Below are positions 21,152 through 55,824 of a stretch of 64,000 nucleotides of DNA, in pieces. A program made the translations under genes and the position numbers. The DNA comes from Cumulibacter soli. GTDB taxonomy: Bacteria > Actinomycetota > Actinomycetes > Mycobacteriales > Antricoccaceae. Numbering within the stretch: the stretch's first letter is position 1; each line of letters begins with the position of its first letter. Below the pieces are notes generated by a model, which was given only the letters and a program-made list of their open reading frames with translations, did not search any database and was not told the DNA's origin. The stretch spans positions 333,681 through 397,680 of the forward strand of contig NZ_SMSG01000005.1 in NCBI RefSeq assembly GCF_004382795.1, written 5' to 3'.

Positions 21152-22267
21152 CTAGTCTTCGAGAGCGGACTGCATCGTCGCGTACGAGTCGACCAAGCCA
21201 TCCATGAAGTCCCGCACCACCTCGCGGGCCGGCTTGGCTTGGTTGAGTAGGCCGACGACCTGCCCCACGAAGTACGAATCCAGTTCCTGAGCGCCGGGGA
21301 CGCCTTTCTCCGCCGCGGCGCGGATCCGCCGCCACGCTTCATTTACCAAGATGCCCTGCTGCGGCATGGGCAGTGGGTCAGGATTAGCGGCGTCCGACCA
21401 CGCCTCGTGGTACGCCGTGACCAATTGGCGTGCGGGCTTGCCGGTGCGTGCCCGCGATCGTTCGGTGTCCGAGGACGTCGCCGCCAGGAACTTCTGCTTC
21501 ACCACCGCATCAGTTTCGGCTTCATCGGTAGTCAGCCACACCGACCCTGTCCACGCACCCGCAGCACCAAGTGCCAGGGCCGCGGCCAACTGGCGCCCGG
21601 TCGCGATACCGCCGGCCGCGAGCACCGGAGTCGGGCTCACCGCATCAACCACTTCCGGCGTGAGCACCATCGAGGCGATCTCACCGGTATGTCCGCCGGC
21701 CTCGTACCCCTGCGCGACGATCAGATCGACACCGCGTTCCTGTTGCTTGAGCGCGTGTTCGACCTTCCCGGTCAGTGCCGCAACCGGTACGCCGTGCTGC
21801 TTGCCGCCGTCGATCATGTCCTGCGGTGGTACGCCGAGCGCATTGGCAATGAGCTTGATCGGGTGCGCGAAGGCGACCTCGAGCGCGGCGCTGACTTCGG
21901 ATGGTGCAACGCTGGGCATCGACGCGCTCAGCGTGTACTCGTCGGACTCATCGATGACGCCGTGTGAGCGCAACATGTCTTGTACGAAGGCGATGTGCTG
22001 CGGCGGCACCATAGCCAGCAACTCGTCGGGCGTCTCATCGGTGAACGAGAGTTTCGCCGGCGCGAGAAGGTCGACGCCGTATGGTTTGCCGCCGGTGTGC
22101 TCGTCGAGCCACCGTAGTTCCAGTTCGAGTTGGTCTGGCGTGAACGCGGTCGCGCCGAGGACGCCGATCCCGCCCGCGTTCGTCACCGCGGCAACCACGT
22201 CCCTGCAGTGGCTAAAAGCCGCCAACGGTACGTCGATGCCAAACATCTCGGTCATCGCTGTCTTCAT
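21152..22267 (-). CDS. Nitronate monooxygenase / enoyl-ACP reductase II-like FMN protein
   Basis: About 371 residues from the ATG at 22267 (a GTG three codons earlier is possible). TIM-barrel FMN family: AAVTNAGGIGVLGATAFTPDQLE, VDLIVAQGYEAGGHTGEI with the conserved His of nitronate monooxygenases, and VLAAGGIATGRQLAAALALGAAGAWTGS for phosphate binding. It probably oxidises alkyl nitronates or reduces an unsaturated acyl substrate; the family is commonly over-annotated. It is divergent from an acyl-CoA ligase. Confidence 0.82.
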   Translation of the reverse strand: MKTAMTEMFGIDVPLAAFSHCRDVVAAVTNAGGIGVLGATAFTPDQLELELRWLDEHTGGKPYGVDLLAPAKLSFTDETPDELLAMVPPQHIAFVQDMLRSHGVIDESDEYTLSASMPSVAPSEVSAALEVAFAHPIKLIANALGVPPQDMIDGGKQHGVPVAALTGKVEHALKQQERGVDLIVAQGYEAGGHTGEIASMVLTPEVVDAVSPTPVLAAGGIATGRQLAAALALGAAGAWTGSVWLTTDEAETDAVVKQKFLAATSSDTERSRARTGKPARQLVTAYHEAWSDAANPDPLPMPQQGILVNEAWRRIRAAAEKGVPGAQELDSYFVGQVVGLLNQAKPAREVVRDFMDGLVDSYATMQSALED

Positions 22268-22477
22268 CCGAAACACCCCTACGTACGTAGCTCCTGGTTC
22301 GGCACATCCTTACGCAGCAGTGGCGCCACGCACAATAGCGCTCACGCCGAGCGGCCCAATCTGTCTCCGCGCGCGATCGCTCGAAGACCCGGGAGGATTC
22401 GCTCTTTGCGCCGCGCTAGCCGCGCGTTATGGTCTAGGCCACACCCAACGCTTCACACCGACTCCAGGAGTTGCGAT

Positions 22478-24028
22478 ATGGACAATGGCATCGGCCGCTG
22501 GAACTACAAGCAGGCTTACAACAACCCGAAGCGTACGGCGCTCGTGTATGGCGAGCGTCGCATCACGTACGGCGAGTTGAATGAGCGCACCAATCGGCTC
22601 GCGGATGCGCTCGCGCGGCGCGGTGTGGAGCGCGGCGATCGGGTGTGCATCCTGTCGACGAACTCTGCCGAATTCCTGGAAACGATGTTCGCGGTGGCGA
22701 AACTCGGTGCCGTGTTCGTACCGATAAACTTTCGCCTCGCCGGCCCTGAAGTCGCTTACGTACTGGGCAATGCCCGCCCGAAGGTGTTCTGCTACAGCGG
22801 CAATCTAGCCGCCACCGTTGATGCCGCTCTCGCGCAGGACGGCGTTGGGCAGTTGCAGCTGATCGCCATGGAGACCGCGGACGTCCCTGACGGCCGCGAA
22901 GCGTTCGAGGACGTCCTCGCCAGCGGTTCGCCCGAGCGGGTCGAACGAGACGTCGACCGTGGCGATCTCGCGATGATCATGTACACCTCGGGCACCACCG
23001 GCCGCCCGAAGGGCGCGATGTTGACCCACCACAACATCGAATCGAACAACTACAACATTCTGTCGATGGGACTCGGCGTCAACAGTTACGACATCACGTG
23101 TACGCCGGCGCCGTTGTTCCACATCGGCGGCCTCGCGGTGCATACGCTGCCGCTGCTGTTCATTGGCGGCACGGTCGTCGTGCTACCGACCTTCGATCCC
23201 GCCGGAACCCTGCAGGCGATGCAGGACCACAAGGTCACGGTGCAGTTCCTGGTGCCGGCGATGTGGGCCGCGCTCACTCAGGTGCCGAACTTCGATTCGT
23301 ATGACACGTCGGCGATGCGTTTTGGTATTTCCGGCGGCGCACCATGTCCGATCCCGGTGATTGAGTTCTTCCAGAGCAAGGGATGGGCATTCACCGAGGG
23401 ATTCGGCATGACCGAAACCTGCGCAGGATGTACCGGCCTGGCGATGGAGGACGTCGTCGAGCGCGCCGGTTCGGTCGGCGTACCGGTGCTGCTGGTGGAC
23501 GCGAAAGTCGTCGATGAGGTCGGCGAGCAGGTGCCCGCCGAGGCGGTCGGAGAACTCATCGTGCGCGGCGACAACGTCTTTATCGGGTACTGGGAGATGC
23601 CGGACGCCACCGCCGACGCGATCCGCGACGGCTGGTTCCATACCGGAGACTTGGCGAAGGTCAGCGAGGACGGATTCATCACCCTCGTCGATCGTAAGAA
23701 GGACATGATCATCTCCGGTGGCGAGAACGTGTACCCGATCGAGGTCGAGCAGGTGCTATATCGACATCCCGCGATCGTCGATGTGGCGGTGATCGGCGTA
23801 CCGCACGAGAAGTGGGGAGAGACGGTGAAGGCAATCGTCGTCCCCGCAGCGGATGCGTCGATCAGTGAGGCCGAGGTGATCGCGTTCGCCCGTGAGAATC
23901 TCGCCGCGTTCAAGTGCCCCACATCGATGGAGACCATCGATGAGTTGCCGCGCAACGCGACGGGCAAGATCCTCAAACGCGCGTTGCGTGAGCAGTACAC
24001 CGGTCGTGGCGAGGCCGTCACCCGGTGA
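22478..24028 (+). CDS. Acyl-CoA ligase (AMP-binding), class I
   Basis: 516 residues from the ATG at 22478; CAGGAG sits 7-8 bases upstream. The longer open frame to the left is not coding. A3 motif YTSGTTGRPKG at 169-179, GFGMTETCAG, GWFHTGDLAKVSEDGFI, DRKKDMIISGGENVYPIEVE and catalytic Lys in NATGKILKRALR. It is a canonical fatty or aromatic acid CoA ligase. It is followed after 292 bases by a second ligase on the same strand; the two are different, not a recent duplication. Confidence 0.9.
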   Translation: MDNGIGRWNYKQAYNNPKRTALVYGERRITYGELNERTNRLADALARRGVERGDRVCILSTNSAEFLETMFAVAKLGAVFVPINFRLAGPEVAYVLGNARPKVFCYSGNLAATVDAALAQDGVGQLQLIAMETADVPDGREAFEDVLASGSPERVERDVDRGDLAMIMYTSGTTGRPKGAMLTHHNIESNNYNILSMGLGVNSYDITCTPAPLFHIGGLAVHTLPLLFIGGTVVVLPTFDPAGTLQAMQDHKVTVQFLVPAMWAALTQVPNFDSYDTSAMRFGISGGAPCPIPVIEFFQSKGWAFTEGFGMTETCAGCTGLAMEDVVERAGSVGVPVLLVDAKVVDEVGEQVPAEAVGELIVRGDNVFIGYWEMPDATADAIRDGWFHTGDLAKVSEDGFITLVDRKKDMIISGGENVYPIEVEQVLYRHPAIVDVAVIGVPHEKWGETVKAIVVPAADASISEAEVIAFARENLAAFKCPTSMETIDELPRNATGKILKRALREQYTGRGEAVTR

Positions 24029-24320: not shown

Positions 24321-25859
24321 GTGACCACCTTCGCCGACCTCCTCACCCAACAGGCGGCCGAACGCGGCACCCGAGTATTTCTGCGCGCCGACTCGGCCGC
24401 GGGCCCGATGACCCCGATGACGTACGCCGAGGTCGAGCAGCGTTCGCGTTCGATCGGTGCCGGTCTACAGCGATTGGGGCTCAGCCGCGGCGACCGCATC
24501 GCGATCGCCGCGCCGAATGAGCTCGAATGGCTCGAATTGTTCTACGGCGCGGTGCGTTCCGGGCTGGTCGTGGTCACGCTCAATACCCGGTACCGCGAGT
24601 CCGAACTGGCGTACATGCTGAATCAGTCGGCTGCAAAGGTCGTCGTTTCCAGCGCGCGTCTTGGCGACTTTGACTATGAGGCGCTGTATGCGCAGTTAGC
24701 CGACCGACTCCCGACCGTGAACCACTACTTCTTCCTCGGTGGCTCAACTGAAGGACGGCGCTTCGCTGATTTGTATGCCGATCCCTCCGATTTCGACGCA
24801 CCGCAGCTTTCCGCTGATGATCCGGCCGTGATCCTGTACACCTCGGGCACCACCGGCCGTCCGAAGGGCGCGACGCTGACGCACAAGTCAATGATCGCTT
24901 CCGGACAGGCACAGCGTGACCACACTGACTTCGGTCCTGAGAATGTCCAGATCTCCTGTATGCCGCTGAACCACGTCGGCGGTATCACCTGCGCCGTTAC
25001 CACCTGCCTGATCGGCGGGGGTGAGTGCGTGATGCTTCCGGCGTACTCGCCAGAGGGTGCACTTGAAGCGATCAGTAACTATGGCGGTACGAACTTCGGC
25101 GGCGTACCGACGATGTGGAAGTTGATGATCGATCACCCGTCGTTCTCCTCGTACGACACGAGCACGATGAGCGAGGCCATCATTGGTGGTTCGAATGCCG
25201 AGCCGACGTTGTGTCGGGAGATTACCGAGGCATTTCCGGGAGTGCGGTTGAGCAACCTCTACGGGCTTTCGGAGTCCTCGGGCGCGGCAGTCCTATCGGC
25301 CGCCGATGACACCGTCGATGAGGTGTCGACGTATATCGGTGTAGCAATTGGTGGAGTCGAGGCCCGGGTAGTGGACGCGAGCGGCGAGCCGCTCGGGGAA
25401 GATGCCGAAGGCGAGCTTCAACTGCGGTGCGATGGTGTGGCAGCGGGCTACTGGGACATGCCTGAGGAGACGGCAGCGACGTTCCTGGCGGATGGCTGGC
25501 TGTCGACCGGTGACATGGCCAGCATCACCGAGGACGGACACATCGCGCTGCGCGGCCGGCTGAAGGAGATGTTTGTTCAGGGCGGATACAACGTCTACCC
25601 CGTTGAGGTGGAGAACCTACTAACCAGTCATCCCGCGGTCGCGATGGCCGCTGGAATCGGCATTGCGGACGATGTACTCGGCGAAGTCGGGCGCTATTTC
25701 ATCCTCAAGCAGGGCGAGGTGAGTCCAGAGGAGCTGATCGACTTCTGCGCGCAACGTCTGGCGAACTACAAGGTTCCGCGGGAGATCGTGTTCGTGGACG
25801 AGATGCCGACGACGCCGTCCGGCAAGATCGCCAAGGCGCAACTTCGCGAGCGCGGATAA
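24321..25859 (+). CDS. Acyl-CoA ligase (AMP-binding), class I
   Basis: 512 residues, GTG start with AAGGGAG 7 bases upstream. A3 motif YTSGTTGRPKG from residue 173, LYGLSESSG, GWLSTGDMASITEDGHI, GRLKEMFVQGGYNVYPVEVE and catalytic Lys in TPSGKIAKAQLR. The protein lacks the usual DRxKD box (it reads GRLKEM), a common variation. Substrate unknown. Same direction as the ligase upstream. Confidence 0.9.
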   Translation: MTTFADLLTQQAAERGTRVFLRADSAAGPMTPMTYAEVEQRSRSIGAGLQRLGLSRGDRIAIAAPNELEWLELFYGAVRSGLVVVTLNTRYRESELAYMLNQSAAKVVVSSARLGDFDYEALYAQLADRLPTVNHYFFLGGSTEGRRFADLYADPSDFDAPQLSADDPAVILYTSGTTGRPKGATLTHKSMIASGQAQRDHTDFGPENVQISCMPLNHVGGITCAVTTCLIGGGECVMLPAYSPEGALEAISNYGGTNFGGVPTMWKLMIDHPSFSSYDTSTMSEAIIGGSNAEPTLCREITEAFPGVRLSNLYGLSESSGAAVLSAADDTVDEVSTYIGVAIGGVEARVVDASGEPLGEDAEGELQLRCDGVAAGYWDMPEETAATFLADGWLSTGDMASITEDGHIALRGRLKEMFVQGGYNVYPVEVENLLTSHPAVAMAAGIGIADDVLGEVGRYFILKQGEVSPEELIDFCAQRLANYKVPREIVFVDEMPTTPSGKIAKAQLRERG

Positions 25860-38484: not shown

Positions 38485-39336
38485 TTAAAGCGCAGTGCAG
38501 ATCAAGATCGTGGCCAGCGCGAGGGTCGCAATCAACTCCACGATGCCGAGGCGCCCAGGTGCGAGTTGACGCCCGCGCATCGGCCACATCATCGGCATAG
38601 CCAGCGCCCGCGCGGTCATCGCGGCGAAGTATGCCGCCAGCGCCCAACCCAGCCAGCCCGATACCCAGATTCCGGCAGCCGCCACGCATGCCAGATGCCA
38701 GAGCACCGAGGCGACCACATACCCGACACTGCCGCGCTCGCGAATCATTGTCTTGACGTAGAGAACGGTGCCGAAGAAGTATCCGAAGCTGGCCGCGCAC
38801 ACCAGCGCGATGAGGTCGTACGGCGGCGACGACACGCCATCGATGAAGTCGAACAGCCCGTCGGCGTACACCACGGCCGGCATCAGACTGGCGGCCGCGA
38901 CGGTGGCGAGTCCGGACGGGATTGAGCGGTCATCACGTCGGTACGCGAAGTACAACCCGATCAGCAGGATCGGCGCGAACGGCAGCAGCCAGCTGATAAT
39001 CGCCGGCTGTAGCGCGAGCGTGATGACGCCTAGAACGGCGGCCGCGCTGACGTAGGCGCGTACCGGCGGTAGGTAACGCGGCCTACGTCGGGATTTCAGC
39101 CACAGGGAGGTGGCGAAAAAGGCGAGGTACCCGACGAACCACAGCCCGAACAGCGTGATGTCGGCAATGTCGAACCGGCCATCGATCGCGGTAATGACCA
39201 AGCCGACGGCGTACGGCGCAATTAACATCGCCCACGCGCCGTGTTGATTGGGCACCCACCCTGCCGAGCGTTTCGTCGTCGACCGGGTACCGGTGGGTTT
39301 AACGGACGACGAACGATCTACAGGTGGGGCGGACAT
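38485..39336 (-). CDS. YwiC-like membrane protein
   Basis: 283 residues. The signature PNQHGAWAMLIAPY near residue 29 defines the YwiC-like family. About eight predicted membrane helices follow, with a short basic cytoplasmic loop (SRRRPRYLPP). A basic N-terminal tail of 25 residues precedes the domain. The function of the family is unknown; the name is structural only. It is flanked by the reductase and a ligase on the same strand. Confidence 0.85.
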   Translation of the reverse strand: MSAPPVDRSSSVKPTGTRSTTKRSAGWVPNQHGAWAMLIAPYAVGLVITAIDGRFDIADITLFGLWFVGYLAFFATSLWLKSRRRPRYLPPVRAYVSAAAVLGVITLALQPAIISWLLPFAPILLIGLYFAYRRDDRSIPSGLATVAAASLMPAVVYADGLFDFIDGVSSPPYDLIALVCAASFGYFFGTVLYVKTMIRERGSVGYVVASVLWHLACVAAAGIWVSGWLGWALAAYFAAMTARALAMPMMWPMRGRQLAPGRLGIVELIATLALATILICTAL

Positions 39337-39380: not shown

Positions 39381-40892
39381 TCAGGAGTCGCGTGCGGCCG
39401 AACGCAGTTCGACCTTCCTAATCTTGCCCACTGCCGTTCGCGGCAACTCGTCGATAGCCACGAACGACGAGGGCTGCTTGAACTTCGCCAGCCGTTTGCG
39501 ACACCACTTCGCCAGCGCCGCTTCGTCGAATGACGCGCCTTCGGCGAGGACGACGTACACCACGATCTGCTCGTCACGCATCTCATCGGGAAGTCCGATC
39601 GCGGCGCACTCGAACACCGAGGGGTGCTCGTTCACGACCCGCTCGATCTCGCCCGCGGCCACGTTCTCCCCGGCTCGTTTGATCATGTCCTTGGTGCGAT
39701 CGACGAAGTAGTAGAACCCGTCCGCGTCGCGGCGTGCGACGTCGCCGGTGCGCAGCCAGCCTTGGGCGAATGTTTGCGCCGTCGCCGTCGGGTTGTGCCA
39801 GTATCCGCTCGCGACGCGTTCACCAAGCCGCCCGCCGACTAGGAGTTCCCCTGGCGTTCCGTCCGGGACATCGGCGCCGGTTTCGTCCACGAGGCGCAGT
39901 TGCGCTCCTGGCATCGCCTTGCCCATCGACGACCACCGGCGTTCGGCGGAGACGGGGTTCAGTGTCGGCGGTAGAACCGTCTCGGTCATCCCGTACCCGT
40001 GGATTAGTCGGGTACTGAATCGCCGCTCGAATTCACGCGCCTGATCATCGGTAATCGACTGGGCGAACATGGTCGTGCGGATCCGAGAATGCTTGTCGTG
40101 TCGGCCTTCGGGTTGCGCGAGGATCATCCGTAGCGGCGCGGCGAACAGAGAGGCGAGGGTGGCGCTGTGCCGACGAGCCTGCGCGCCGAATCTGGTCGCG
40201 CTGAAGGCCGGCATGATCGCCAGCGAAGCGCCAATAGTCAGCGCGGACATCGTGCAATAGAACTGCGCATTGCCGTGGAATAGCGGCAGCACGATCAGCC
40301 ACCGATCGTCAACGCCGACGCTGTAGTGCTCCGCGCACGCTCGACCCACCGCGAGGTACGACCCGTTCGTGATCATCACGCCCTTGGGTCGGCTGGTGGT
40401 GCCGGAGGTGTAGAGGATCGTGGCCAGGTCGGTGCCGAGCGCCGGTGTGTGGTGCGTCGGCGTTGCGGCGGCTGCCTTGGTGGCAAATGTCGTGCGTGTC
40501 AACGAGCGGATGCCCGGCCGAAGAGCTTCGTTCACGGTGTCGTACGCGTCATCGTCGGCGATGCTGGCCGATGCGCCGGAGTCGCGGAGGAAGTGCGTCA
40601 ACTCCTCGACGGTGGACTGCGGGTTCGTCGGTACCAGGACCGCGCCGATCGCGTTAGCGCCCAGCCATAGGTCCAAAAACTCCGGGCAGTTGCTGAGGTG
40701 CACATGCACCCGGTCCCCGCGGTGTATGCCGAGTTCGCGCAGTACGGCGCCCGCGCGCAGTGACCGATTCACCTGAGAGGCGTAGGTGACGGTGGTGACC
40801 TTGCCGTCGGCGTCCTCATAGCTGGCGAATGAGCGGGTCGGAAAATGCGACCAACGCTCGAGCAATTGGAACGGTGAGACGGCGTCGGACAC
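39381..40892 (-). CDS. Acyl-CoA ligase (AMP-binding), class I
   Basis: 503 residues from the GTG at 40892, with GGGAG upstream; the frame is open 23 codons further but not family-like. A3 motif YTSGTTSRPKG (161-171) with Ser replacing Gly, as in the ligase at 12307. HGYGMTETVLPP, GWLRTGDVARRDADGF, DRTKDMIKRAGENVAAGEIE and the catalytic Lys in TAVGKIRKVELR. Carnitine/crotonobetaine-CoA ligases have a similar layout, but the substrate is uncertain. Confidence 0.88.
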   Translation of the reverse strand: MSDAVSPFQLLERWSHFPTRSFASYEDADGKVTTVTYASQVNRSLRAGAVLRELGIHRGDRVHVHLSNCPEFLDLWLGANAIGAVLVPTNPQSTVEELTHFLRDSGASASIADDDAYDTVNEALRPGIRSLTRTTFATKAAAATPTHHTPALGTDLATILYTSGTTSRPKGVMITNGSYLAVGRACAEHYSVGVDDRWLIVLPLFHGNAQFYCTMSALTIGASLAIMPAFSATRFGAQARRHSATLASLFAAPLRMILAQPEGRHDKHSRIRTTMFAQSITDDQAREFERRFSTRLIHGYGMTETVLPPTLNPVSAERRWSSMGKAMPGAQLRLVDETGADVPDGTPGELLVGGRLGERVASGYWHNPTATAQTFAQGWLRTGDVARRDADGFYYFVDRTKDMIKRAGENVAAGEIERVVNEHPSVFECAAIGLPDEMRDEQIVVYVVLAEGASFDEAALAKWCRKRLAKFKQPSSFVAIDELPRTAVGKIRKVELRSAARDS

Positions 40893-41021
40893 GGTTACTC
40901 GCTCCCGGGAAGTTCGAAGTCGGCTCCTCAAGACTAATTCGAGAGGGCGACACACCGCCATGAGTGGCGAACGGTCCGCAGCCGCATAGGTCTCGAGCCT
41001 GGACGGACGTGGGAGGGCGTC

Positions 41022-42116
41022 TCAGTCGCCGTCCGCCGCCCGCGACGTCTTGCTCGGGCTCATCGAGTCCGGTGTCGCCTCGTTCGCGCTGATCGAGCCC
41101 GCGCTCGTCGAGCCCGCCCTCATCGAATCTGGTCCCGCCGAATCTGGTCCCGTCGAATCTGGGCGCGGTGAATCTGGGCGCGGTGAATCTGGGCGTGGTG
41201 AACCTGGGCGTGGTGAACCGAGCCAGGCGAGTCGGCGGGCCAATGGGATGAATACGAGTAGGTCGACAAGCATCATCAAGACTCCGGCGAGACGCTGATC
41301 GGCTACCGGCCCGAGGCCCCACGGTGACATGTCTGACGACATCAACGGATAGGGGCTCAGCAATAACGCAAGCCCGAGGATCCCGGACGCGCCTCCGACG
41401 AGAAGGACCGTCCGGGACGCGGCCGGACCAGCTCCGGCGGCACACTGGCCTAAGACGGTGCGAAAGAACAGAAGTCCGGTCACCGCGACGCTCGCTACGA
41501 GCGCCGCCTGGATCGCCCGGTTCGCCATCATCGACTGGTGTACGGCGGGAACGTGCCAGAAGTACAGCACCGCGACATACGCGATACCCGACGCCGCGAT
41601 CAGGTGCCCGCTACCTCGCCGGCTCGGGTTTCGATTCAGCGGCGCGCGTGTAGTGAGCGCGAGTAGAGCCGGTGCGAGCACCATCAGCGCCATCAGTTGA
41701 GCCATCATCGCCAGGTGCGACGCGATCGCCGAATGCCACGACTGCGGTAACAGCGCCAGTCCGGCGACGACGACTGCGGTTGCCAGCCACCAGACGCGCC
41801 ACCGCTCGATCTGTTCGAGGTCCCGCGGCCAGGTGGGTATCGAGCGAGCAAACAGCCAACCTCCGAGGACCATCGCTGCTGACAACAACGCGACGGTGAC
41901 TGCGCCGACGACGTTGGTTGTCGGGTGGGCGCTGTGGCTGGAATCGGCGGGATCAGCAGATCGCCATAGCAGCACGAATCCGGCGGCTAGTCCCGCCGCA
42001 GCCGCGAGCTCCAGGACCGCCATCGCGACGAGCCTGCCAAGTCGCTCGCCGACGAGATCATGCACGGTCGCCGGTGGGTTCGGAGCGCCGGGATCCTGCG
42101 GCCGAGACGCGCTCAC
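41022..42116 (-). CDS. CtaG-like (cytochrome c oxidase assembly factor) membrane protein with repeat tail
   Basis: 364 residues, GTG start. About eight membrane helices. Family cues: SWHSAIASHLAMMAQLMALMVLAPALLAL, YFWHVPAVHQSMMANRA and VADQRLAGVLMMLVDLL, matching the caa3-type CtaG family with conserved His and Trp. CtaG-type proteins help deliver copper to terminal oxidases, but no oxidase gene lies here. The cytoplasmic tail (about 300-345) is built from pentapeptides of the type PRPDS encoded by 15-bp DNA repeats. Last gene of the five-gene operon from 44875. Confidence 0.8.
   Translation of the reverse strand: MSASRPQDPGAPNPPATVHDLVGERLGRLVAMAVLELAAAAGLAAGFVLLWRSADPADSSHSAHPTTNVVGAVTVALLSAAMVLGGWLFARSIPTWPRDLEQIERWRVWWLATAVVVAGLALLPQSWHSAIASHLAMMAQLMALMVLAPALLALTTRAPLNRNPSRRGSGHLIAASGIAYVAVLYFWHVPAVHQSMMANRAIQAALVASVAVTGLLFFRTVLGQCAAGAGPAASRTVLLVGGASGILGLALLLSPYPLMSSDMSPWGLGPVADQRLAGVLMMLVDLLVFIPLARRLAWLGSPRPGSPRPDSPRPDSPRPDSTGPDSAGPDSMRAGSTSAGSISANEATPDSMSPSKTSRAADGD
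41125..41219 (-). repeat. 15-bp tandem repeat array in the CtaG-like gene
   Basis: Seven consecutive units with exact 15-bp period (GAATCT or variant at 41125, 41140, 41155, 41170, 41185, 41200, 41215). It encodes the pentapeptide tail. Being a multiple of three, length change would keep the frame. Confidence 0.8.
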
Positions 42117-42129
42117 AGCACAGCGCTAG

Positions 42130-42285
42130 TTACGCTGCGGCCCGTTCCTCCTGGTGGGGCTCCACGGTCGTTGCGTAGTAGTAGGCCAGCCATGCGGACT
42201 GATCGGGCAATTCCCTTGCCCGGCGTCGTCCGAAGCGTGCCTTGATCGTTTCGAACAGGTACGCCACTATCAAACAGCACGCCAC
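42130..42285 (-). CDS. Small protein, 51 residues, unknown
   Basis: Read directly from the minus strand: GTG at 42285, TAA at 42132-42130, with GAGGAGG 6 bases upstream, a strong ribosome binding site. It starts with a short hydrophobic stretch (VACCLIVAYLF), then a basic helix (KARFGRRRARELPD) and an aromatic segment (SAWLAYYYATT) before an acidic tail. It lies 21 bases after the 38-residue gene and 13 bases before the CtaG-like gene. Spacing, coding bias and the ribosome site support a real gene. Function unknown; possibly a small subunit of the Ldi/CtaG-like complex. Confidence 0.7.
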   Translation of the reverse strand: MACCLIVAYLFETIKARFGRRRARELPDQSAWLAYYYATTVEPHQEERAAA

Positions 42286-42306
42286 GAACACCCTCCTCGC
42301 TCGAGG

Positions 42307-42423
42307 TCACAGCAACGACACGAACTGCCACACACCGGCGCCGAGCAACAACAACGCAACCACAGCATAGATCGCGATGATGGCCGCGGACCCGTCCTTG
42401 CGGGCGCTGGTCTGCTCGGTCAT
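42307..42423 (-). CDS. Small membrane protein, 38 residues, unknown
   Basis: ATG at 42423, stop TGA at 42309-42307. The start overlaps the stop of the linalool-dehydratase-like gene (ATGA, 42420-42423) and GGAGG lies 5 bases upstream, within that gene. The short charged N-terminus (TEQTSARKDG) is followed by one membrane helix filling the rest (from SAAIIAIYAVV to the C-terminus). Translational coupling implies equal production with the enzyme. Function unknown; a single-helix subunit or stabiliser is a reasonable guess. Confidence 0.72.
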   Translation of the reverse strand: MTEQTSARKDGSAAIIAIYAVVALLLLGAGVWQFVSLL

Positions 42424-44618
42424 GACGCCTCCGTCGGCTTGATCAACTGCGTAGTGCGCTCGCTAAGGCGCACCCGGGCCACGCCCGCACCGGTGGCGTC
42501 GGTACGGAACGTCCGTCCCGAGGTCCCGATCTGGTATTCGCGACTGGGCGCCAGCCGCTCGAACGCCAACTCGAACTCACCAGCTCCGGCGGTGGGTTCT
42601 AGCGTGAGGCAGAGAACGTCGTCCCGGCCATTGGCGTAGGTGACCAGAACGTCCGGGTACGGCGCGGAAGCGAGAATGGGACCGCCATACCGCGGGATCC
42701 GCGCACACAGAAAGTCGTCCTGTTTGTACAGTCGCGACCAGCGGGCTTTCGCTGCCGTCGTATTCGCGGCGAGGCTGGCGTGGAACGGCCGATCCGCATC
42801 GGGGCCTAGGAAGTTTGCGGCATCCATACCGCGGACGGCGGCGTCGGCGATGTCGTCCTCACCGTAGAGGCGCGCGAGCTCGCCGATACCGGCGTACACC
42901 ACGGTGTTGTTCGGCGGATAACCAGTTTTCTCCATCGGCGACCACGCGCCCGAGAGGAAGTGGTTGACGCTCGGCGAGCGGGAGAGCAGCCGCGCGAGCC
43001 GACCGCTGGAGGCACCGGGCCGTTGGGCCGGCGGCAATGTCAGCACGTCGTCGGTGATCGGCAGTTTCGCGAACACCGCCGGATTGTCTCCGATGAGGTA
43101 GAGCCTCGCGGCGATCTCCGGCGACATCGTGCGACCCAACCCGACGATGAATTGGTTGCCGTCCATGAACATTGGCGATGTGCCATCGTTCCAGGTCAGT
43201 GAGCCGACATTCACGCCGAGGAACGAATTGAAGTGCCCGTAGTAGTCGCCGTTCGGTTTCATCCACTCGTGATCGAGCGCATCGAGGTAGCGCTGTGAGA
43301 CCGTGTCCCACTCATCGGTGCCGTGCACCGCGGAGAATCCGCGCACCCCGGCGGCGCCCATCTGATTACACACCGAGTAGATCTGGTGTGGCTCGCATGG
43401 CCACCACGACATCGGGGATTCGGCGTACGCGGCGGCACAGTGCCGAGCAATCTCCGGGTAACTGTAAGACCAGGAACGCCCGTCCTCCCAGGTGAACGTG
43501 AGCGAGTCCGGCTCGTCGTAACTCAGGTCGCCGGTCGCGGCCTCATAGTGCGCGATGTGCTTGGCCAGGAACCCGCCGAACATGACGTTCTGAAACTTTG
43601 CGCCGACGACCGGGTCGGGGCTGCGGCGGAAGTTACCCATGAACTCCTCGCCGTACCAGTAACCCCAAACAGCCATCTCCTGAGCCTTGTCGATGACGTT
43701 GCGTTGCGCCTGACCGAGCAGTCCGGGATAGGCGGGTGCGTAATTCGCCTGGAAGTAGGCGAGCGCGTACCCGACCTCGTTGACTTGGTAGCGCAGCGCC
43801 GATGCCTCGACGGCGTCCTCGCCCCAATCCCACCCGTCGAACTCGGCGCGAGGTTGCATGGAAATGCGCAGTAGCCAGCGGATCATGGTGGCATCGACGT
43901 CGTTCACCGGCAGCGGCGGCTGCATCCGCCCGCCGCGCTCGACGACCACCGCGATGGGGTCGAAGTCTTGTACGTGCGGCCGCGCGCTGGGCGGATCGAA
44001 CGAGCGCACGACACGCTCCACGACGTCTGGACTGACGGCGGCCAACGCCGCGTTGCGCGCCTCGCGGCTTTGCAGCGCTCGAAGATGAGAGCGGCGCAGG
44101 TTGATCAGGTGGTGAACGACGTACAACCCGGCGCAGATCAGCACAATCGGGATTGCCCACGGCCACGTCGTTCCGGGGTGCGTGCCGAGGCGGGGTCCGT
44201 CCGCGAGTGCAACCGATCCGATGACGGAGGCCGCGTACACCGCGATGAGGTGGATCATCGAGCCGAACCCGATCCACAGGTTCCAGCTCAGCCAGAACAG
44301 CACCCACGTCAGCACGAACAAGATCGGCCACGCGTCATAAAGGAATCCGGCACCTGGCACCAGCAGCGCGATGCCGCCGGCGTCGGTCCATCGCGTGTTG
44401 CCGAACAGGATGAGGCTCAGCGCGATCACAGTTACCGCGAGCACGGCCAACGCGAACCGTTTGGTGTAATGGCGCCGCGCCGGACCCCAGCGTGGTACCT
44501 CGGGGATCCGCTGGATGGCGGCACGGTCACGTATCAGGCTCCCGGCGGGCGCCGCGGCCGGCACAGGGCTCGAGTCCGAGGGCGGCCGCGACCGCGTGGA
44601 TACCAGCTGATCAACCAC
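42420..44618 (-). CDS. Membrane-anchored linalool dehydratase/isomerase-like protein
   Basis: 732 residues, GTG start with AAGGGAG upstream. Residues 50-172 hold four membrane helices. The C-terminal 500 residues resemble the linalool dehydratase/isomerase (Ldi) family, an (alpha/alpha)6 barrel: KAQEMAVWGYWYGEEFMGNFRRSPDP, YPEIARHCAAAY and SWWPCEPHQIYSVCNQMGAAG. C408 and C417 are nine residues apart, the same spacing as the two active-site cysteines (C171 and C180) of the Castellaniella enzyme. Known Ldi is soluble and periplasmic and interconverts myrcene, linalool and geraniol. This membrane-tethered form and its operon suggest a related isoprenoid or lipid substrate. Other active-site residues need alignment. 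Confidence 0.72.
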   Translation of the reverse strand: MVDQLVSTRSRPPSDSSPVPAAAPAGSLIRDRAAIQRIPEVPRWGPARRHYTKRFALAVLAVTVIALSLILFGNTRWTDAGGIALLVPGAGFLYDAWPILFVLTWVLFWLSWNLWIGFGSMIHLIAVYAASVIGSVALADGPRLGTHPGTTWPWAIPIVLICAGLYVVHHLINLRRSHLRALQSREARNAALAAVSPDVVERVVRSFDPPSARPHVQDFDPIAVVVERGGRMQPPLPVNDVDATMIRWLLRISMQPRAEFDGWDWGEDAVEASALRYQVNEVGYALAYFQANYAPAYPGLLGQAQRNVIDKAQEMAVWGYWYGEEFMGNFRRSPDPVVGAKFQNVMFGGFLAKHIAHYEAATGDLSYDEPDSLTFTWEDGRSWSYSYPEIARHCAAAYAESPMSWWPCEPHQIYSVCNQMGAAGVRGFSAVHGTDEWDTVSQRYLDALDHEWMKPNGDYYGHFNSFLGVNVGSLTWNDGTSPMFMDGNQFIVGLGRTMSPEIAARLYLIGDNPAVFAKLPITDDVLTLPPAQRPGASSGRLARLLSRSPSVNHFLSGAWSPMEKTGYPPNNTVVYAGIGELARLYGEDDIADAAVRGMDAANFLGPDADRPFHASLAANTTAAKARWSRLYKQDDFLCARIPRYGGPILASAPYPDVLVTYANGRDDVLCLTLEPTAGAGEFELAFERLAPSREYQIGTSGRTFRTDATGAGVARVRLSERTTQLIKPTEAS

Positions 44619-44647
44619 GAGCTACTCCCTTGCCTATGTCCGGCACT

Positions 44648-44875
44648 TCAGCCCCACAACCGCTTGCGGCGACGAGCCCAGTGGATGGCCACGGCGTACC
44701 AGGCAAGCAACGCGATCGTGCCGAACCCGAGCGCGACGAGCCACAGGACGTTCGCCGGAGTTGTGCCTACGTCGTAAGTGCTGGCGAAGATCGCGAATGC
44801 GATGGCTAGAACGCCGCTGACGAGGGTGGTGATCCAAGCCGCGCCGGGCTTCGGTGTTCTGATGCTGGGCTCCAT
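44648..44875 (-). CDS. Small two-helix membrane protein, 75 residues
   Basis: ATG at 44875. A charged N-terminus (MEPSIRTPKPG), two membrane helices (about 12-32 and 43-66) joined by a short loop STYDVGTTPAN, and a basic tail (WARRRKRLWG). It precedes the Ldi-like gene by 29 bases on the same strand and is probably the first gene of the five-gene operon. Family not recognised. The frame stays open further upstream, but that part is unlike a protein. Confidence 0.75.
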   Translation of the reverse strand: MEPSIRTPKPGAAWITTLVSGVLAIAFAIFASTYDVGTTPANVLWLVALGFGTIALLAWYAVAIHWARRRKRLWG

Positions 44876-45177
44876 GGCCTGGCGGTACTTCGTTGTCACG
44901 ACAGCAATCCCGTCACCGTGGCGCTTCGCATGAAGGGAAGCGCTTTGCGTGATTGAATCACTCGCGCCAAAACGCGCGCAATACTTCGTCGATCTGCAGA
45001 AGACAAGCGCTCGCACCGGTGGATTCCTTGGTAGCGCTGGATTCCGGGTACAAACCGCGCGAATCTGTGAGGAGATTGGCGTTCCTGCCTTAGACGTGAC
45101 GAGGCCCGATGGCCGCGGCACCGCGAATGCCTGTAATGCCTCAAGGGCGGTGTGAGCGCGGCCGATAACCTGGGTCC
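44876..45177. other. 302-bp divergent control region
   Basis: It separates the Ldi/CtaG-like operon (minus) from the M3 peptidase gene (plus). It contains a perfect 13-base palindrome-like site at 44949-44961 and short stems nearby. No gene was recognised; open frames here look non-coding. Confidence 0.55.
44949..44961. promoter_or_regulatory. Palindrome GTGATT-G-AATCAC, candidate operator
   Basis: A 6-bp inverted repeat around a single base, AT-rich relative to its surroundings, 74 bases upstream of the first gene of the Ldi/CtaG-like operon. The spacing of GTGA and TCAC is five bases, one short of the CRP/GlxR consensus. A GntR-like or other regulator is possible. Confidence 0.4.
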
Positions 45178-47082
45178 ATGACGTTTCAGTTGCCTACGGA
45201 CATACCCATCAATGCGTGGATTGCCCAGCGCACCGCGCAGTCGCTGGCCGCCGGGAGCGACGGCGTCGACAGGCTGAAACGTGAGCCGGGCGGCGCCATC
45301 GACGTCCTGCGCGGGTGGAACGAGGTGTCAATCGCATTGGGCGGTGCCGGCGCAATCGCTGAGACGCTGTCCGAGATGCACCCTGACCCCGTCGTCCGGC
45401 AGGCTGCCGATCAGGCCATCCAAGAGATCGCCACGTTCTCCACCGATCTGGAACTTGATCGCGATCTGTACGAGGTCTTCGCAGCGGCCGACGAGTCCAC
45501 GCTCGATGCTAATGGCGTGCGCCTGCTGCGGAAGATCCGTCAAGACTTCACCCGGGCCGGCGTCGACAAGGACGAGGCGACGCGCGAACGTATCCGCGCA
45601 ATCAACGAGCGGATGGTCGTGCTCAGCCAAGACTTTGGCCGCAATCTGCGTGAGGACGTCCGCAGTATTCGCGTAGCTCCGGCCGTCCTGGAGGGTCTCC
45701 CGTCGGATTGGGTCGCGGCGCACCCCGCAGACGACGACGGCTTCGTCACGGTCACGACCGACTACCCAGACGTCGTTCCCTTTAGTTCCTTCTGCGCGGA
45801 CGCGGATGCGCGCCGTGCGCTTCGCGTGGAGTTCCTGAACCGTGGCTGGCCGCAGAACGACGCCTTGCTACAAGAGCTGTTCGCGCTGCGTCGTGAATAC
45901 GCCGCGTTGGTCGGCTATGACTCGTGGGCCGACTACACCGCAGAGACCAAGATGATCGGCAATGGCGTAGCTATCCTGCAGTTCATCGACAGGATTGCAG
46001 ATGCGGCGCGCGAGTCCGGTGAGCGTGACCGCGCCATTGTGCTGGAACGGCTGCGCCAGGACCGCCCCGAAGCGAGCACCGTGGACGCGGCCGACCTCGC
46101 CTATTACTCCGAACTCGTCCGCAAGGAGCAACTCGACGTCGATGCGCAGTTGGTGCGCACGTACTTCGACTTCGAGAAGGTGCGCGCCGGACTGCTGGAG
46201 GTCACCGGCAGACTATTCGGGCTGCGCTACCAACCGATCGAGGCGAGCACCTGGCACGAAGATGTTGCGTCGTACGACGTGTTTTTTGCTGATACCGACG
46301 CTCAGGTAGGTCGGATCCACCTCGATCTGCATCCCCGCGAGGGTAAGTACAAGCATGCCGCTCAGTTCACCTTGGTCGAGGGAATCGTCGGCCGCCAGCT
46401 CCCGGAGGGCGTGCTGGCCTGCAACTTCAGTCGGGGACTCATGGAGCACGACGACGTCGTGACGCTGTTCCACGAGTTCGGCCACCTGGTGCACCACATC
46501 GTCGGCGGACACACCCCATGGCACCGGTTCTCCGGCGTCGCGACCGAATGGGATTTCGTCGAAGCGCCCAGTCAATTGCTCGAAGAGTGGGCCTGGGACG
46601 CCAGCGTCCTGCAGAGCTTCGCGACCAACGCCACCGGCCAACCCATCCCGACCGACCTCGTCGCGGCCATGCGTAAAGCGGAGGATTTCGGTAAGGGTCT
46701 GCATGCCCGAACGCAGATGTTCTACGCCGCCATGTCGTACTGGTTCCACGTCGAGGAGTACGACGACCTGACGGCTCGGCTGCGTGAGCTGCAAGAGCAG
46801 TACAGCCTGCTGCCGTACATCGATGACACGCATATGCACGCGTCATTCGGACATTTGGACGGCTACTCCTCGGGGTATTACACCTACATGTGGTCGCTGG
46901 TTATCGCGAAGGACCTGTTCAGCGCTTTCGACACCGCGGACTTGTTCGAGCCAACCGTGGCGCGACGTTACCGAGAGCAGATTCTGGCCGCCGGCGGCAC
47001 TCGAGATGCCGCCGACCTGGTGACTGCGTTCCTCGGTCGCCCGTCGTCATTCGCGGCGTTCGAGGCGTGGCTAGCGCTGTAG
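45178..47082 (+). CDS. M3 family zinc metallopeptidase (oligopeptidase)
   Basis: 634 residues. Zinc site H432-E-F-G-H436 in LFHEFGHLVHHIVGGH, with the downstream zinc ligand region FVEAPSQLLEEWAWD, as in thimet oligopeptidase/Dcp. HMHASFGHLDGYSSGYYTYMWSLVIAKDLF near the C-terminus carries substrate-binding His and Tyr. It degrades short cytosolic peptides. No signal peptide. Stands alone and converges with the iron ABC operon. Confidence 0.92.
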   Translation: MTFQLPTDIPINAWIAQRTAQSLAAGSDGVDRLKREPGGAIDVLRGWNEVSIALGGAGAIAETLSEMHPDPVVRQAADQAIQEIATFSTDLELDRDLYEVFAAADESTLDANGVRLLRKIRQDFTRAGVDKDEATRERIRAINERMVVLSQDFGRNLREDVRSIRVAPAVLEGLPSDWVAAHPADDDGFVTVTTDYPDVVPFSSFCADADARRALRVEFLNRGWPQNDALLQELFALRREYAALVGYDSWADYTAETKMIGNGVAILQFIDRIADAARESGERDRAIVLERLRQDRPEASTVDAADLAYYSELVRKEQLDVDAQLVRTYFDFEKVRAGLLEVTGRLFGLRYQPIEASTWHEDVASYDVFFADTDAQVGRIHLDLHPREGKYKHAAQFTLVEGIVGRQLPEGVLACNFSRGLMEHDDVVTLFHEFGHLVHHIVGGHTPWHRFSGVATEWDFVEAPSQLLEEWAWDASVLQSFATNATGQPIPTDLVAAMRKAEDFGKGLHARTQMFYAAMSYWFHVEEYDDLTARLRELQEQYSLLPYIDDTHMHASFGHLDGYSSGYYTYMWSLVIAKDLFSAFDTADLFEPTVARRYREQILAAGGTRDAADLVTAFLGRPSSFAAFEAWLAL

Positions 47083-52437: not shown

Positions 52438-52541
52438 GCCGCCGGTTACCGCTGGGGTCGGAATCGTTAGGTTTTGGTGGCCGAAACTCGTTAACCCACG
52501 TTTAATGTCATATGACCCACATCTCATTAAGGAGTGACTCC

Positions 52542-54119
52542 GTGTCCCAGCCGTTGTACCCGGGATCGATCGCCGAAACCCCCGACATCCAGCAGGCGCG
52601 ATCCTGGGCGTTCAGCGCCCACTTGACCCGAATGGCGCGCAAGCAGCCCAACAACATCGCGTTCAAGTGTGATGACGAGACGCTGACTTACGGCGAGTTG
52701 GATCATAAGGTCACCCGGTTGGCTAATGCGCTGCGCGGACGGGGCATTGAGCGCGGCGATCGTGTCGCAACGATCAGCATGAACAACCTTGAGCACGTGA
52801 TCACGTTCTGGGCCGCGTGGCGTCTGGGTGCTGTCGTCGTTCCGATGAACTTCCGACTTGCCCCGCCAGAGCTCACGTATCTGATCACCGATTCCGGTGC
52901 GAAGGCTGTCGTCGTGGACGCCGCTTTCGACAACCTTGAGCAGGCGGCGCGTGACGCGGTCGCCGTGCGCCTGGTCATCGGCGGAGAGCCGTCCGACGGC
53001 GCCGAAGACTTCACGGCCTTCCTGGAGTCCGGCAGCGACGTACACGAATACGTGCACGTTGAGGAGAACGAACTCTGCACCATCATGTACACCTCGGGCA
53101 CCACCGGTCTGCCCAAGGGCGCGATGCTGAGCTACAGCAACTTGCTCGCGCAGGTACACAACATCATCGCGATCTTCAAACTCACCGGTCCGGACGAAGT
53201 GAATCTGTGCGGAGTCCCGCTGTTCCACATCGCCGGTATCGGTGGACTACTACCGAACTTCCGCCTCGGTGGACGGACGATCGTCCAGCGCCTCGGCGCG
53301 TTCGATCCGCAGGCAACCCTGGAGTTGATCCGCGACGAAGGGGTGACCCAGGCGTTCCTGGTCCCGACGCAATGGCAGGCGGTGTGCGCCCTGCCGCCGT
53401 TGGACCCGCCGATCACGACGCTGCGGCGGATCTCCTGGGGCGCGGCGCCGACGACCATCGGCATCCTCGAGGGAATGGAACGCACCTTCGGCGGCATCGA
53501 GAATATCGCCGTATTCGGGCAATCGGAGATGTCGCCGGTCACCTGCTCACTGGACGCCAAGGATGCGATCCGCAAGATCGGCTCGGTCGGCCTGCCGATT
53601 CCTGGAGTCGAGGCGCGTGTCGTGGACGCATCGGGGAACGACGTTGCCCAGGGGGAGGTGGGGGAGATCGTCTACCGCGGTCCGAACATGATGCTGGGCT
53701 ACTGGAACCGCCCCGAAGCGACTGCTGAGGCGTTCGCCGGCGGTTGGTTCCATTCCGGCGACCTCGTCCGGCAGGACGAAGAGGGTTTCGTGTACGTCGT
53801 TGACCGGCTCAAGGACATGCTGATCTCCGGTGGTGAAAACATTTATTGCGCCGAGGTCGAAGCTGCCGTCCAATCGCATCCTGACGTGCTGGAAGCCGCC
53901 GTGATCGGCCGCCCGCATGAGAAGTGGGGTGAGATTCCGATCGTGATCGTTGCCGCGAACCCGGGTGCGACTCTTACCGAGCAAGACGTTCTCGACCATG
54001 TCAGCGACAAACTCGCACGCTACAAGCAGCCGAAGGGCGTGCATTTCGTCGATGCGCTGCCGCGCAACGCTTCGGGTAAGGTCACCAAACCCGACCTACG
54101 TAAGGAATTCGGTAAGTAG
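52542..54119 (+). CDS. Acyl-CoA ligase (AMP-binding), class I
   Basis: 525 residues from the GTG at 52542, chosen because AAGGAG lies 7 bases upstream; the in-frame ATG at 52512 lacks a site. A3 motif YTSGTTGLPKG from residue 183, FGQSEMSPVT in place of the usual GMTE box, GWFHSGDLVRQDEEGF, DRLKDMLISGGENIYCAEVE and catalytic Lys in NASGKVTKPDLR. Fatty or aromatic acid CoA ligase. 73 bases before the next ligase, same strand. Confidence 0.9.
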   Translation: MSQPLYPGSIAETPDIQQARSWAFSAHLTRMARKQPNNIAFKCDDETLTYGELDHKVTRLANALRGRGIERGDRVATISMNNLEHVITFWAAWRLGAVVVPMNFRLAPPELTYLITDSGAKAVVVDAAFDNLEQAARDAVAVRLVIGGEPSDGAEDFTAFLESGSDVHEYVHVEENELCTIMYTSGTTGLPKGAMLSYSNLLAQVHNIIAIFKLTGPDEVNLCGVPLFHIAGIGGLLPNFRLGGRTIVQRLGAFDPQATLELIRDEGVTQAFLVPTQWQAVCALPPLDPPITTLRRISWGAAPTTIGILEGMERTFGGIENIAVFGQSEMSPVTCSLDAKDAIRKIGSVGLPIPGVEARVVDASGNDVAQGEVGEIVYRGPNMMLGYWNRPEATAEAFAGGWFHSGDLVRQDEEGFVYVVDRLKDMLISGGENIYCAEVEAAVQSHPDVLEAAVIGRPHEKWGEIPIVIVAANPGATLTEQDVLDHVSDKLARYKQPKGVHFVDALPRNASGKVTKPDLRKEFGK

Positions 54120-54192: not shown

Positions 54193-55824
54193 ATGGACGG
54201 CCTCATGCAGCGCGTACCGCTGAGCATCGTCGACATCTTCGAGCATGCCGAGCGGATGCACTCACACAAAGAGATCATCACGCGCGGACCCTCGCCGAGC
54301 CGCTACACGTACGGGGACTGGGCGCAACGAGTGCGCCAACTCGGGACCGCGCTGGACCAGCTAGGGCTCAGCGCGGATGCGCGAGTCGGCACGTTCTGCT
54401 GGAATCACGCGCAACACCTCGAACTGTACTTCGCGGCGCCATGTAGTGGACGTGTACTGCACACGTTGAACATCCGCCTGTTCCCCGAACAGTTGGAATA
54501 CATCATCAACCACGCCGACGACGAGGTCATCTTCGCCGACCGCTCGTTGCTCCCACTCTTGCTTCCGATCCTGGAAAAGACGCCGGGGGTCCGTCAGGTC
54601 GTAGTCATCGACGACGGATCCGGACCGGAAATAGTGGACGGCGAAAAGTTCCTCGACTACGAGCAGCTGATCGCGGGACGCGAGCCTGCCCAGTTCACGA
54701 TCGAGGACGAAAATCAGGCCGCGGCGATGTGTTACACCTCCGGTACAACAGGGAATCCGAAGGGCGTGGTGTACTCGCACCGATCGACGTACCTGCACGC
54801 GATGTTGATGACGTCCACCGTCACGATCTCTCTCGCTGAGGACGATCGACCTCTGGTGATCGTGCCGATGTTTCACGCCAACGCGTGGGGTATGCCGTAC
54901 GCGGCGCCGCTTTGTGGCGCGTCGTTGGTATTCCCCGCATCTGACATGTCGCCAGCCGCGAACGCGCAGACCATTCAGGACGAGAAGGTCACCATCGCGA
55001 TGGGTGTGCCCACGATTTGGCAGGGGCTGCTGCCAATCCTCGAGCAATACGACTTGTCGTCGCTGCGAGCGCTGTGCGCCGGTGGCTCAGCCGTGCCTCG
55101 CGGGCTGATCAAGGAGTATCGCGACCGCGCGAATCTGCATATATACCAAGGATGGGGAATGACCGAGACCTCGCCCATTGGCAGCATGGGGAGAGCTGGG
55201 TCCTCTGAGCAGGCCCTGGATCCTGACGCGCAGTTGGACCTCGCGGCCACCGGCGGGTACATCGTCCCGGGGGTCACGGCGCGCATCGTCGAACCAGATA
55301 CCGAGAACGTGCAGCCCTGGGATGACGAAGCAACCGGCGAGTTGCAGATCAAAGGTGCATGGATCGCCTCGGAGTACTACAAGCCGGAAAAGCCAGGGCT
55401 CAGCACCGCGGGTGGGTGGATGCGGACCGGGGATATAGCAGCGATTGGGCCGCGAGGAGTGCTGCGGATCGTCGACCGAACCAAGGATCTGGTGAAGTCG
55501 GGTGGTGAGTGGATTTCGTCCGTCGACGTCGAGAATATTCTGATGGCGCATCCCGACATCAAGGAGGCGGCGATCGTTGGCGTTCCGCACCCAAAGTGGA
55601 CCGAGCGCCCGCTCGCGTGCGTCGTGCTGAAGGACGGCGTCGAAGCGACGGAGGCGAAGAAACAAGAGATTCTAGAGTTCTTGGCGCCACAGATCGCGAA
55701 GTGGTGGCTGCCTGATGCTCTTGAGTTCATTGACGAAGTGCCGAAAACCAGCGTAGGGAAGTTCTCCAAGAAGGATCTGCGGCAGCGCTATGCCGACTAT
55801 GCGCTGCCCGGTTCCGAGGCATGA
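54193..55824 (+). CDS. Medium/long-chain acyl-CoA ligase (AlkK/DmdB-like)
   Basis: 543 residues, GGGAGGG before the ATG. Opening IVDIFEHAERMHSHKEIITRGPS, A3 motif YTSGTTGNPKG from residue 181, QGWGMTETSPIGS, GWMRTGDIAAIGPRGVLRI, DRTKDLVKSGGEWISSVDVENILMAHPDIKEAAI and Lys in TSVGKFSKKDLR. The SGGEWIS variant is typical of the fatty-acid and methylmercaptopropionate ligase branch. The stop overlaps the next gene by 4 bases. Confidence 0.91.
   Translation: MDGLMQRVPLSIVDIFEHAERMHSHKEIITRGPSPSRYTYGDWAQRVRQLGTALDQLGLSADARVGTFCWNHAQHLELYFAAPCSGRVLHTLNIRLFPEQLEYIINHADDEVIFADRSLLPLLLPILEKTPGVRQVVVIDDGSGPEIVDGEKFLDYEQLIAGREPAQFTIEDENQAAAMCYTSGTTGNPKGVVYSHRSTYLHAMLMTSTVTISLAEDDRPLVIVPMFHANAWGMPYAAPLCGASLVFPASDMSPAANAQTIQDEKVTIAMGVPTIWQGLLPILEQYDLSSLRALCAGGSAVPRGLIKEYRDRANLHIYQGWGMTETSPIGSMGRAGSSEQALDPDAQLDLAATGGYIVPGVTARIVEPDTENVQPWDDEATGELQIKGAWIASEYYKPEKPGLSTAGGWMRTGDIAAIGPRGVLRIVDRTKDLVKSGGEWISSVDVENILMAHPDIKEAAIVGVPHPKWTERPLACVVLKDGVEATEAKKQEILEFLAPQIAKWWLPDALEFIDEVPKTSVGKFSKKDLRQRYADYALPGSEA

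Follow-up and report, generated by a model that had tools for sequence, protein, structure and literature searches.

A linalool isomerase-type membrane enzyme and an associated family of small two-cysteine proteins in an operon of Cumulibacter soli

What kind of system is encoded by a tight row of five genes whose largest product resembles linalool dehydratase/isomerase (Ldi), a terpene enzyme known as a soluble protein, and whose last product resembles the cytochrome oxidase assembly factor CtaG, with three tiny proteins around them? This question is raised by positions 41,022 to 44,875 of a 64,000-nucleotide stretch of DNA from Cumulibacter soli (contig NZ_SMSG01000005.1), hereafter the window. 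A first-pass annotation had proposed an undescribed membrane-bound enzyme complex with coupled small subunits, perhaps acting on an isoprenoid lipid or quinone, and all five minus-strand open reading frames (ORFs) were found where it placed them, with gaps of 29, -4 (ATGA), 21 and 13 bases (Table 1). What is new here is a family of small membrane proteins carrying two cysteines (CC proteins), which is tied to genes of the linalool isomerase (Lis) type; the membrane architecture of Lis itself is already known.

The large enzyme and its published counterpart

The 732-residue protein (P0002) matches the Pfam family Ldi (PF18566) over residues 276-487 (2.9e-51, 175.3 bits against a curated cut-off of 26.1), although only profile positions 1-224 of 318 are spanned. 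An AlphaFold2 model with a predicted local distance difference test score (pLDDT) of 84 and a predicted template modelling score of 0.88 could be superposed, in residues 234-644, on the solved Ldi structure 5i3t (Z 29.6, root-mean-square deviation 3.2, 334 residues aligned), the best match to a structure other than Ldi reaching Z 18.5. Residues C408 and C417, which had been read as the Ldi cysteines at nine-residue spacing, do line up with the catalytic pair of the solved enzyme and are invariant in 50/50 aligned homologues; all 91 Ldi ORFs read in frame carry the motif C[EQ]P-x6-C[NQ], four loci (L014, L071, L095 and L098) having been left out of this count and of the tree. The four membrane helices of the first-pass annotation were also recovered, in residues 55-172, by hydropathy and in agreement with the model, and by the positive-inside rule the catalytic domain would face the cytoplasm.

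A membrane-bound Ldi cannot be regarded as a new type of enzyme, contrary to the first-pass annotation, because Lis of Thauera linaloolentis 47Lol (EC 5.4.4.4), described in 2016, is an Ldi homologue whose cytosolic C-terminal domain follows four membrane helices at the N-terminus (PMC4791888; this and the other papers cited are drawn on from the accessible parts of their text). Lis is one of two EC 5.4.4.4 enzymes named in the literature surveyed. The window enzyme has the same four N-terminal helices and C-terminal Ldi-like domain and the same CEP-x6-CN cysteine motif, at approximately 29% identity, and judged from its sequence it is a divergent Lis-type protein of known architecture. Its catalytic domain is folded like that of the Ldi of Castellaniella defragrans and has the same catalytic cysteine pair. 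The Castellaniella enzyme, however, is soluble and periplasmic, and a second pair of its cysteines is joined in a capping disulfide, whereas the window enzyme has, by hydropathy and model, four membrane helices rather than a signal peptide and a soluble periplasmic form, and it lacks the second pair: no cysteine is found at residues 257-259 or 313-315, the equivalent places by alignment, of which the 257-259 stretch reaches two residues past the aligned part. Ldi needs the capping pair in the oxidised and the catalytic pair in the reduced state (PMC6600392); in the Lis-type proteins the catalytic pair alone is invariant (50 aligned rows).

A two-cysteine small protein beside Lis-type genes

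The relatives of the enzyme come from a scan of GTDB genome contigs (124 found, 80 kept, Thauera, L055, included), and the counts of neighbouring genes rest on 93 loci with 95 Ldi genes, two Lis genes of L013 sharing one CC gene; an earlier scan of genome contigs with the 732-residue protein alone as query had returned no relatives. We define the CC family by an M-x-CC or MCPxC start followed by a hydrophobic helix. The 51-residue product P0004, which starts with GTG and reads VACCLIVAYLF, fits this definition, and its gene lies 134 bases behind that of the enzyme on the same strand. When left out of the profile, P0004 still scores 20.0 bits (E 0.001), the best value in the part of the window searched.

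A CC ORF of either form adjoins 75/95 Lis genes on the same strand, in Actinomycetota, Pseudomonadota and Myxococcota, including one that is cut by a contig end (L061). Tiny M-A-C-C ORFs are seen next to the enzyme genes of Rhodococcus opacus, Nocardia, Amycolatopsis, Mycobacterium and others; overall, M-x-CC ORFs with a hydrophobic helix accompany 71 genes, at a distance of up to 700 bases in 65 cases and of up to 1.5 kb in the others, and the MCPxC version (38-40 residues, 6-20 bases behind the gene) is found in L016, Nocardia nova and N. coubleae. Under a uniform rule, 68/95 genes have a CC-type ORF within 700 nucleotides on the same strand and none has one there on the opposite strand, while 11 were counted, both strands together, in the remaining 1,137 kb of locus sequence, six of which are the further-off CC peptides of L013, L014, L021, L077, L091 and L096. 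This count against background, together with purifying selection in the relatives (dN, the nonsynonymous rate, below the synonymous rate dS in 9/9 CC pairs compared), rules out chance ORFs. CC proteins vary from 24 to 246 residues, or 319 in a fusion with a CtaG-like protein, and among the 44 of 75-145 residues a third cysteine occurs in 37 and an HxxH-like motif in 27. P0004 and seven other CC proteins compared with Pfam, and nine compared with NCBIfam, match no family over its cut-off; values of 0.0049 for Cation_ATPase_C with the CC protein of L011 and of 0.0043 for DLW-39 with an MCPxC peptide were below the cut-offs and are taken as noise. P0004 thus appears to belong to an undescribed family of two-cysteine membrane proteins, and our searches of the open-access literature, in the accessible parts of the papers, found no description of a CC partner of Lis or of a link between CtaG and Lis.

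The coupled small subunits of the first-pass annotation are thereby reduced to one: P0004 is conserved with the enzyme, but phmmer found no relatives of P0001 or P0003 in other Lis loci at E below 0.6, which rules them out as conserved subunits. None of the three has a Pfam match over cut-off. Co-occurrence of the five genes holds accordingly for the CC protein and, in 9/93 loci, for the CtaG-like protein.

Whole-genome searches tie the CC family to Lis as well. Ldi is rare, being present in 7/396 actinobacterial genomes; a second search of 396, with the same genomes listed, gave full-length matches to the CC profile (E <=0.01) in three, all Ldi-bearing; two of the three had supplied seeds of the profile and the third (G153) none. 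With a profile that misses some true members, no full-length member was found in the 389 Ldi-free actinobacterial genomes, and two partial matches without a CC start were seen in other actinobacterial genomes. Full-length matches among the 101 relatives searched are those of G000 and G023, both with Ldi. In the phylum of Thauera, Ldi occurs in 3/299 genomes, Thauera among them, and Thauera gives the sole convincing CC match; the other two Ldi (G781 and G706) are of the soluble type, and no CC match was found in either genome. Ten weak matches in Ldi-free genomes (4+2+4) were read singly and rejected, none being a small M-x-CC ORF. In whole-genome searches of ten Lis-bearing genomes or records, a match with E <1e-3 came from six, of which two had supplied seeds, and the MCPxC form was present in a further two. 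The matches outside the seeds are those of Thauera linaloolentis (4.8e-9), Thauera sp. Sel9 (5.2e-9), Pseudomonas izuensis (7.9e-8, at a distance of ~36 kb from Lis) and Steroidobacter (8e-4, directly before atu-like carboxylase genes).

The Thauera lis cluster encodes a CC protein, like the window operon. It has 127 residues, and its gene lies on the lis contig and strand approximately 8 kb upstream of lis, separated from it by atuC-, atuF- and atuE-like genes, whereas in the window the CC gene is next door and is followed by the CtaG-like gene. The accessible text on the cluster places lis downstream of atuCFE and calls the intervening genes hypothetical (PMC4847356), and no CC-type protein is named in the accessible parts of the two Thauera papers.

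It has to be asked if the CC protein belongs to the enzyme at all, as small membrane proteins in apparent terpene catabolic clusters might equally be co-transcribed factors for terpene uptake or membrane tolerance. We think this unlikely: CC proteins accompany membrane Lis more than soluble Ldi, the soluble Ldi genes of R. erythropolis and Allorhizobium having no CC ORF nearby and the two soluble-type genomes mentioned above giving no match, and an invariant dithiol suits a chemical role better. Two enzymes without membrane helices, those of L011 (G080) and L103 (Mycolicibacter nonchromogenicus), are exceptions in having a CC protein, but theirs has several membrane helices and its gene extends into the beginning of the enzyme gene, as if the CC protein were the anchor of a helix-free enzyme.

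The explanation that we favour, and consider on balance probable, is that the operon encodes a membrane Lis-type isomerase with a dedicated CC dithiol partner and a CtaG-like accessory protein. Thauera Lis is inactive without reductant and is irreversibly inhibited by detergents, and lis expressed alone in Escherichia coli yields an inactive membrane protein (PMC4791888). Because Lis keeps only the catalytic pair, needs reduction and is inactive when made alone, the CC protein is best read as its redox or structural partner. P0004 would bind the enzyme and either keep the two catalytic cysteines reduced or supply the second pair, which Ldi carries within its own chain and for which the CC protein would be the substitute in Lis; the conserved feature of the CC proteins is precisely a cysteine pair (CC, or CPxC in three relatives). 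The Lis-type enzyme probably shifts the hydroxyl group within a tertiary allylic (terpene) alcohol, giving a primary alcohol for CoA-dependent breakdown, and the CtaG-like protein probably serves the dithiol site by loading or maintaining it, either with copper or through an exchange of thiols. The computations themselves establish the homology, the fold, the conservation of the cysteines, the CC family with its linkage and phyletic tie to Lis, and the purifying selection among its members in relatives; contact between the proteins, the redox role, the substrate and the part played by CtaG are inferences from these. Loss of a CC partner would also be compatible with the inhibition by detergents, and if the partner is needed, a reason is at hand for the inactivity of Lis made alone in E. 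coli. A partner kept across three phyla would open uncharacterised terpene alcohol isomerases to biocatalysis. The shortest CC members (24-60 residues) can escape gene callers, and no gene is annotated at the CC place in the R. opacus and Aureimonas tables, the plasmid gene tables being incomplete.

Several observations weigh against this explanation. The Thauera authors suggest misfolding as the cause of the failed expression, and their enriched Lis gave bands at 60-70 and ~32 kDa, with no small protein mentioned in the accessible text (PMC4791888). Arg-rich tails suggest that the CC cysteines lie within the membrane, or across it from the cytoplasmic catalytic domain, which would make direct thiol exchange awkward. 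No CC ORF adjoins 20/95 Lis genes; seven of these (L014, L017, L028, L038, L050, L055 and L086) have one further off in the genome, the genomes of L051 and L087 were searched and gave no convincing match, and no search by locus handle covered the other eleven. The profile missed three of six Ldi genomes that carry a CC or MCPxC ORF (G023 and G080, each with an adjacent CC ORF, and G217, with the MCPxC form), and in some genomes <=21 candidates were scored with it; being insensitive and applied to few candidates, it makes the absence of CC proteins elsewhere weaker evidence than the number suggests. In a model of the Mycobacterium innocens protein, in which the CC peptide is the N-terminus of a CtaG-like protein, the CC helix has pLDDT ~50-60, and no docking of the CC peptide can be read from it. 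Finally, the window enzyme is a long-branch member of the family (2.65 changes per column, identity <=33%), and its substrate may therefore differ from that of its relatives.

The CtaG-like protein and copper

The 364-residue P0005 was rightly called CtaG-like: it matches Caa3_CtaG (PF09678) at 2.6e-13 (50.4 bits against a curated cut-off of 27.7) and shares the conserved His and Met residues. It differs from canonical CtaG as a divergent second copy, the canonical paralogue elsewhere in the genome giving 4.0e-85 against 4.0e-14 for the operon copy. The nine loci with a CtaG-like gene within 3 kb of Lis are all from Actinomycetota, a weaker tenth gene lying 4.2 kb away in L048; as 21 relatives of the window have 40 CtaG genes, or ~1.9 each, chance would account for ~0.1 such neighbours in the ~32 actinobacterial loci. 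CtaG accompanies short CC peptides in 9/15 actinobacterial loci and long ones in 0/11 (p 0.0024, relatedness ignored), the M. innocens fusion being counted as short and the comparison covering 26 of ~32 loci, those with a CC protein nearby (L014, L015, L017, L023, L051 and L066 are left out). Its presence on the enzyme tree needs at least three changes and the CtaG proteins form two distant groups, so that the link either originated repeatedly or was lost many times.

This association, the fusion included, is what argues for another role of the CC protein, namely as a Cu(I) site in a system where Lis, or its small subunit, is assisted by copper that CtaG delivers, or SCO in one relative. H137, M141 and H191 are invariant in 8/8 aligned CtaG proteins, several of which have His/Met-rich loops, and the third cysteines and HxxH-like motifs of the longer CC proteins would suit a metal; a SCO1/SenC gene (L024:8403-8903) also follows, after 10 bases, the gene of the soluble Ldi-like protein in Allorhizobium ampelinum. 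We nevertheless regard copper as a minority possibility. CtaG is not found within 3 kb in 84/93 loci, the ultraviolet-visible spectrum of enriched Lis shows no cofactor (PMC4791888), although Cu(I) would be silent, and the accessible text on the mechanisms of Ldi rests them on cysteines and names no metal (PMC6600392). A stronger form, in which membrane Lis would be an obligate two-part copper-dependent isomerase with the CC dithiol, likely holding Cu(I) that CtaG loads where it is present, binding the alkene or the catalytic cysteines, is in our opinion doubtful; if true, a copper-dependent terpene alcohol isomerase would be chemistry unreported for the Lis/Ldi family in the accessible literature surveyed. 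SCO as a general partner was ruled out, as it adjoins the enzyme gene in Allorhizobium only, a second SCO gene, in L038, being encoded on the opposite strand at a distance of >1 kb.

The C-terminus of the window's CtaG-like protein (41040-41220) holds a degenerate SPRPD-type repeat not seen in seven aligned CtaG proteins. Loci of the R. opacus type, and only these, have a second small protein between Lis and CtaG, with the motif WMSIPAWSRWF (WMGIPTWAKWF in R. opacus); none of this type is present in the window operon.

Substrate, spread and gene layout

Many of the relatives' genes sit among alcohol/aldehyde dehydrogenase and acyl-CoA ligase genes, and some among atu genes, which points to terpene alcohols as the substrate. 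In C. soli itself, AtuC-, AtuF- and AtuA-like genes, whose products are 45, 39 and 35% identical to those of Steroidobacter, lie in a row ~58-64 kb away on the operon's own contig and may represent an acyclic terpene utilisation cluster. Together with an acyl-CoA ligase gene behind the operon, this row fits the breakdown of an acyclic terpene alcohol, without proving it. The isoprenoid lipid or quinone suggested by the first-pass annotation, as the substrate of an undescribed complex, finds some room in the membrane anchoring and divergence of the window enzyme, which leave its substrate open, and one weak hint in Aureimonas sp. AU20 (L022:8126-10749), where a gene for polyprenyl diphosphate synthase comes immediately before the Lis-like gene, an order that hints at a longer isoprenoid in that lineage. 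Against an architecture that is that of published Lis and the catabolic neighbours of so many relatives, we hold such a substrate to be very improbable.

The window enzyme clusters weakly with proteins of R. opacus, Amycolatopsis and Nocardia aurea (88/63 support). Two other species of its genus that were searched have no Ldi, and the Ldi of genome G338 is only a fragment, which contains a stop codon and lies on a short contig.

Table 1. Features of the operon, of its surroundings and of other loci cited in the text
Feature	Position	Strand	Basis or remark
P0001, 75 residues, two membrane helices	44648..44875	-	Hydropathy; without relatives in other loci
P0002, Lis/Ldi-type enzyme, 732 residues	42420..44618	-	Pfam Ldi 2.9e-51
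P0002 regions	residues 55-172, four membrane helices; ~234-644, Ldi fold; 648-728, beta domain at the C-terminus		
Codon of catalytic-type cysteine C408 (motif CEP)	43395..43397	-	Invariant; aligns with solved-Ldi cysteine
Codon of catalytic-type cysteine C417 (motif CN)	43368..43370	-	Invariant; aligns with solved-Ldi cysteine
P0003, 38 residues, one membrane helix	42307..42423	-	Start overlaps Lis stop (ATGA); without relatives in other loci
Ribosome-binding sequence of P0004, GAGGAGG	42292..42298	-	Read in sequence; six bases 5' of GTG
P0004, CC protein, 51 residues: VACC, hydrophobic helix, Arg tail	42130..42285	-	Leave-one-out profile, E 0.001
P0005, Caa3_CtaG-like membrane protein, 364 residues	41022..42116	-	PF09678 2.6e-13
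AMP-dependent acyl-CoA ligase	39381..40961	-	PF00501 3.9e-71; 60 bases past CtaG-like gene
YwiC-like gene	38485-39336	-	44 bases past acyl-CoA ligase
AtuC-, AtuF-, AtuA-like genes in a row	G000:C5:310847-316184 (L134:8848-14185)		Outside window
WMSIPAWSRWF protein	L021:11734-11958, L077:9868-10053, L091:9866-10039		Conserved in these three loci

The row of same-strand genes continues past position 41022 with the acyl-CoA ligase, which is probably in the same transcription unit as the CtaG-like gene, and then the YwiC-like gene. A search for sigma-70-type promoters gave no match in 40700-45300, a result that is little informative for this organism. Six acyl-CoA-ligase-like ORFs were seen in the window (12307-13890, 22130-24028, 24321-25859, 39381-40961, 52512-54119 and 54193-55824), of which the one behind the operon was tested with Pfam and the other five were judged by eye; ORFs resembling CoA-transferases and acyl-CoA dehydrogenases accompany them.

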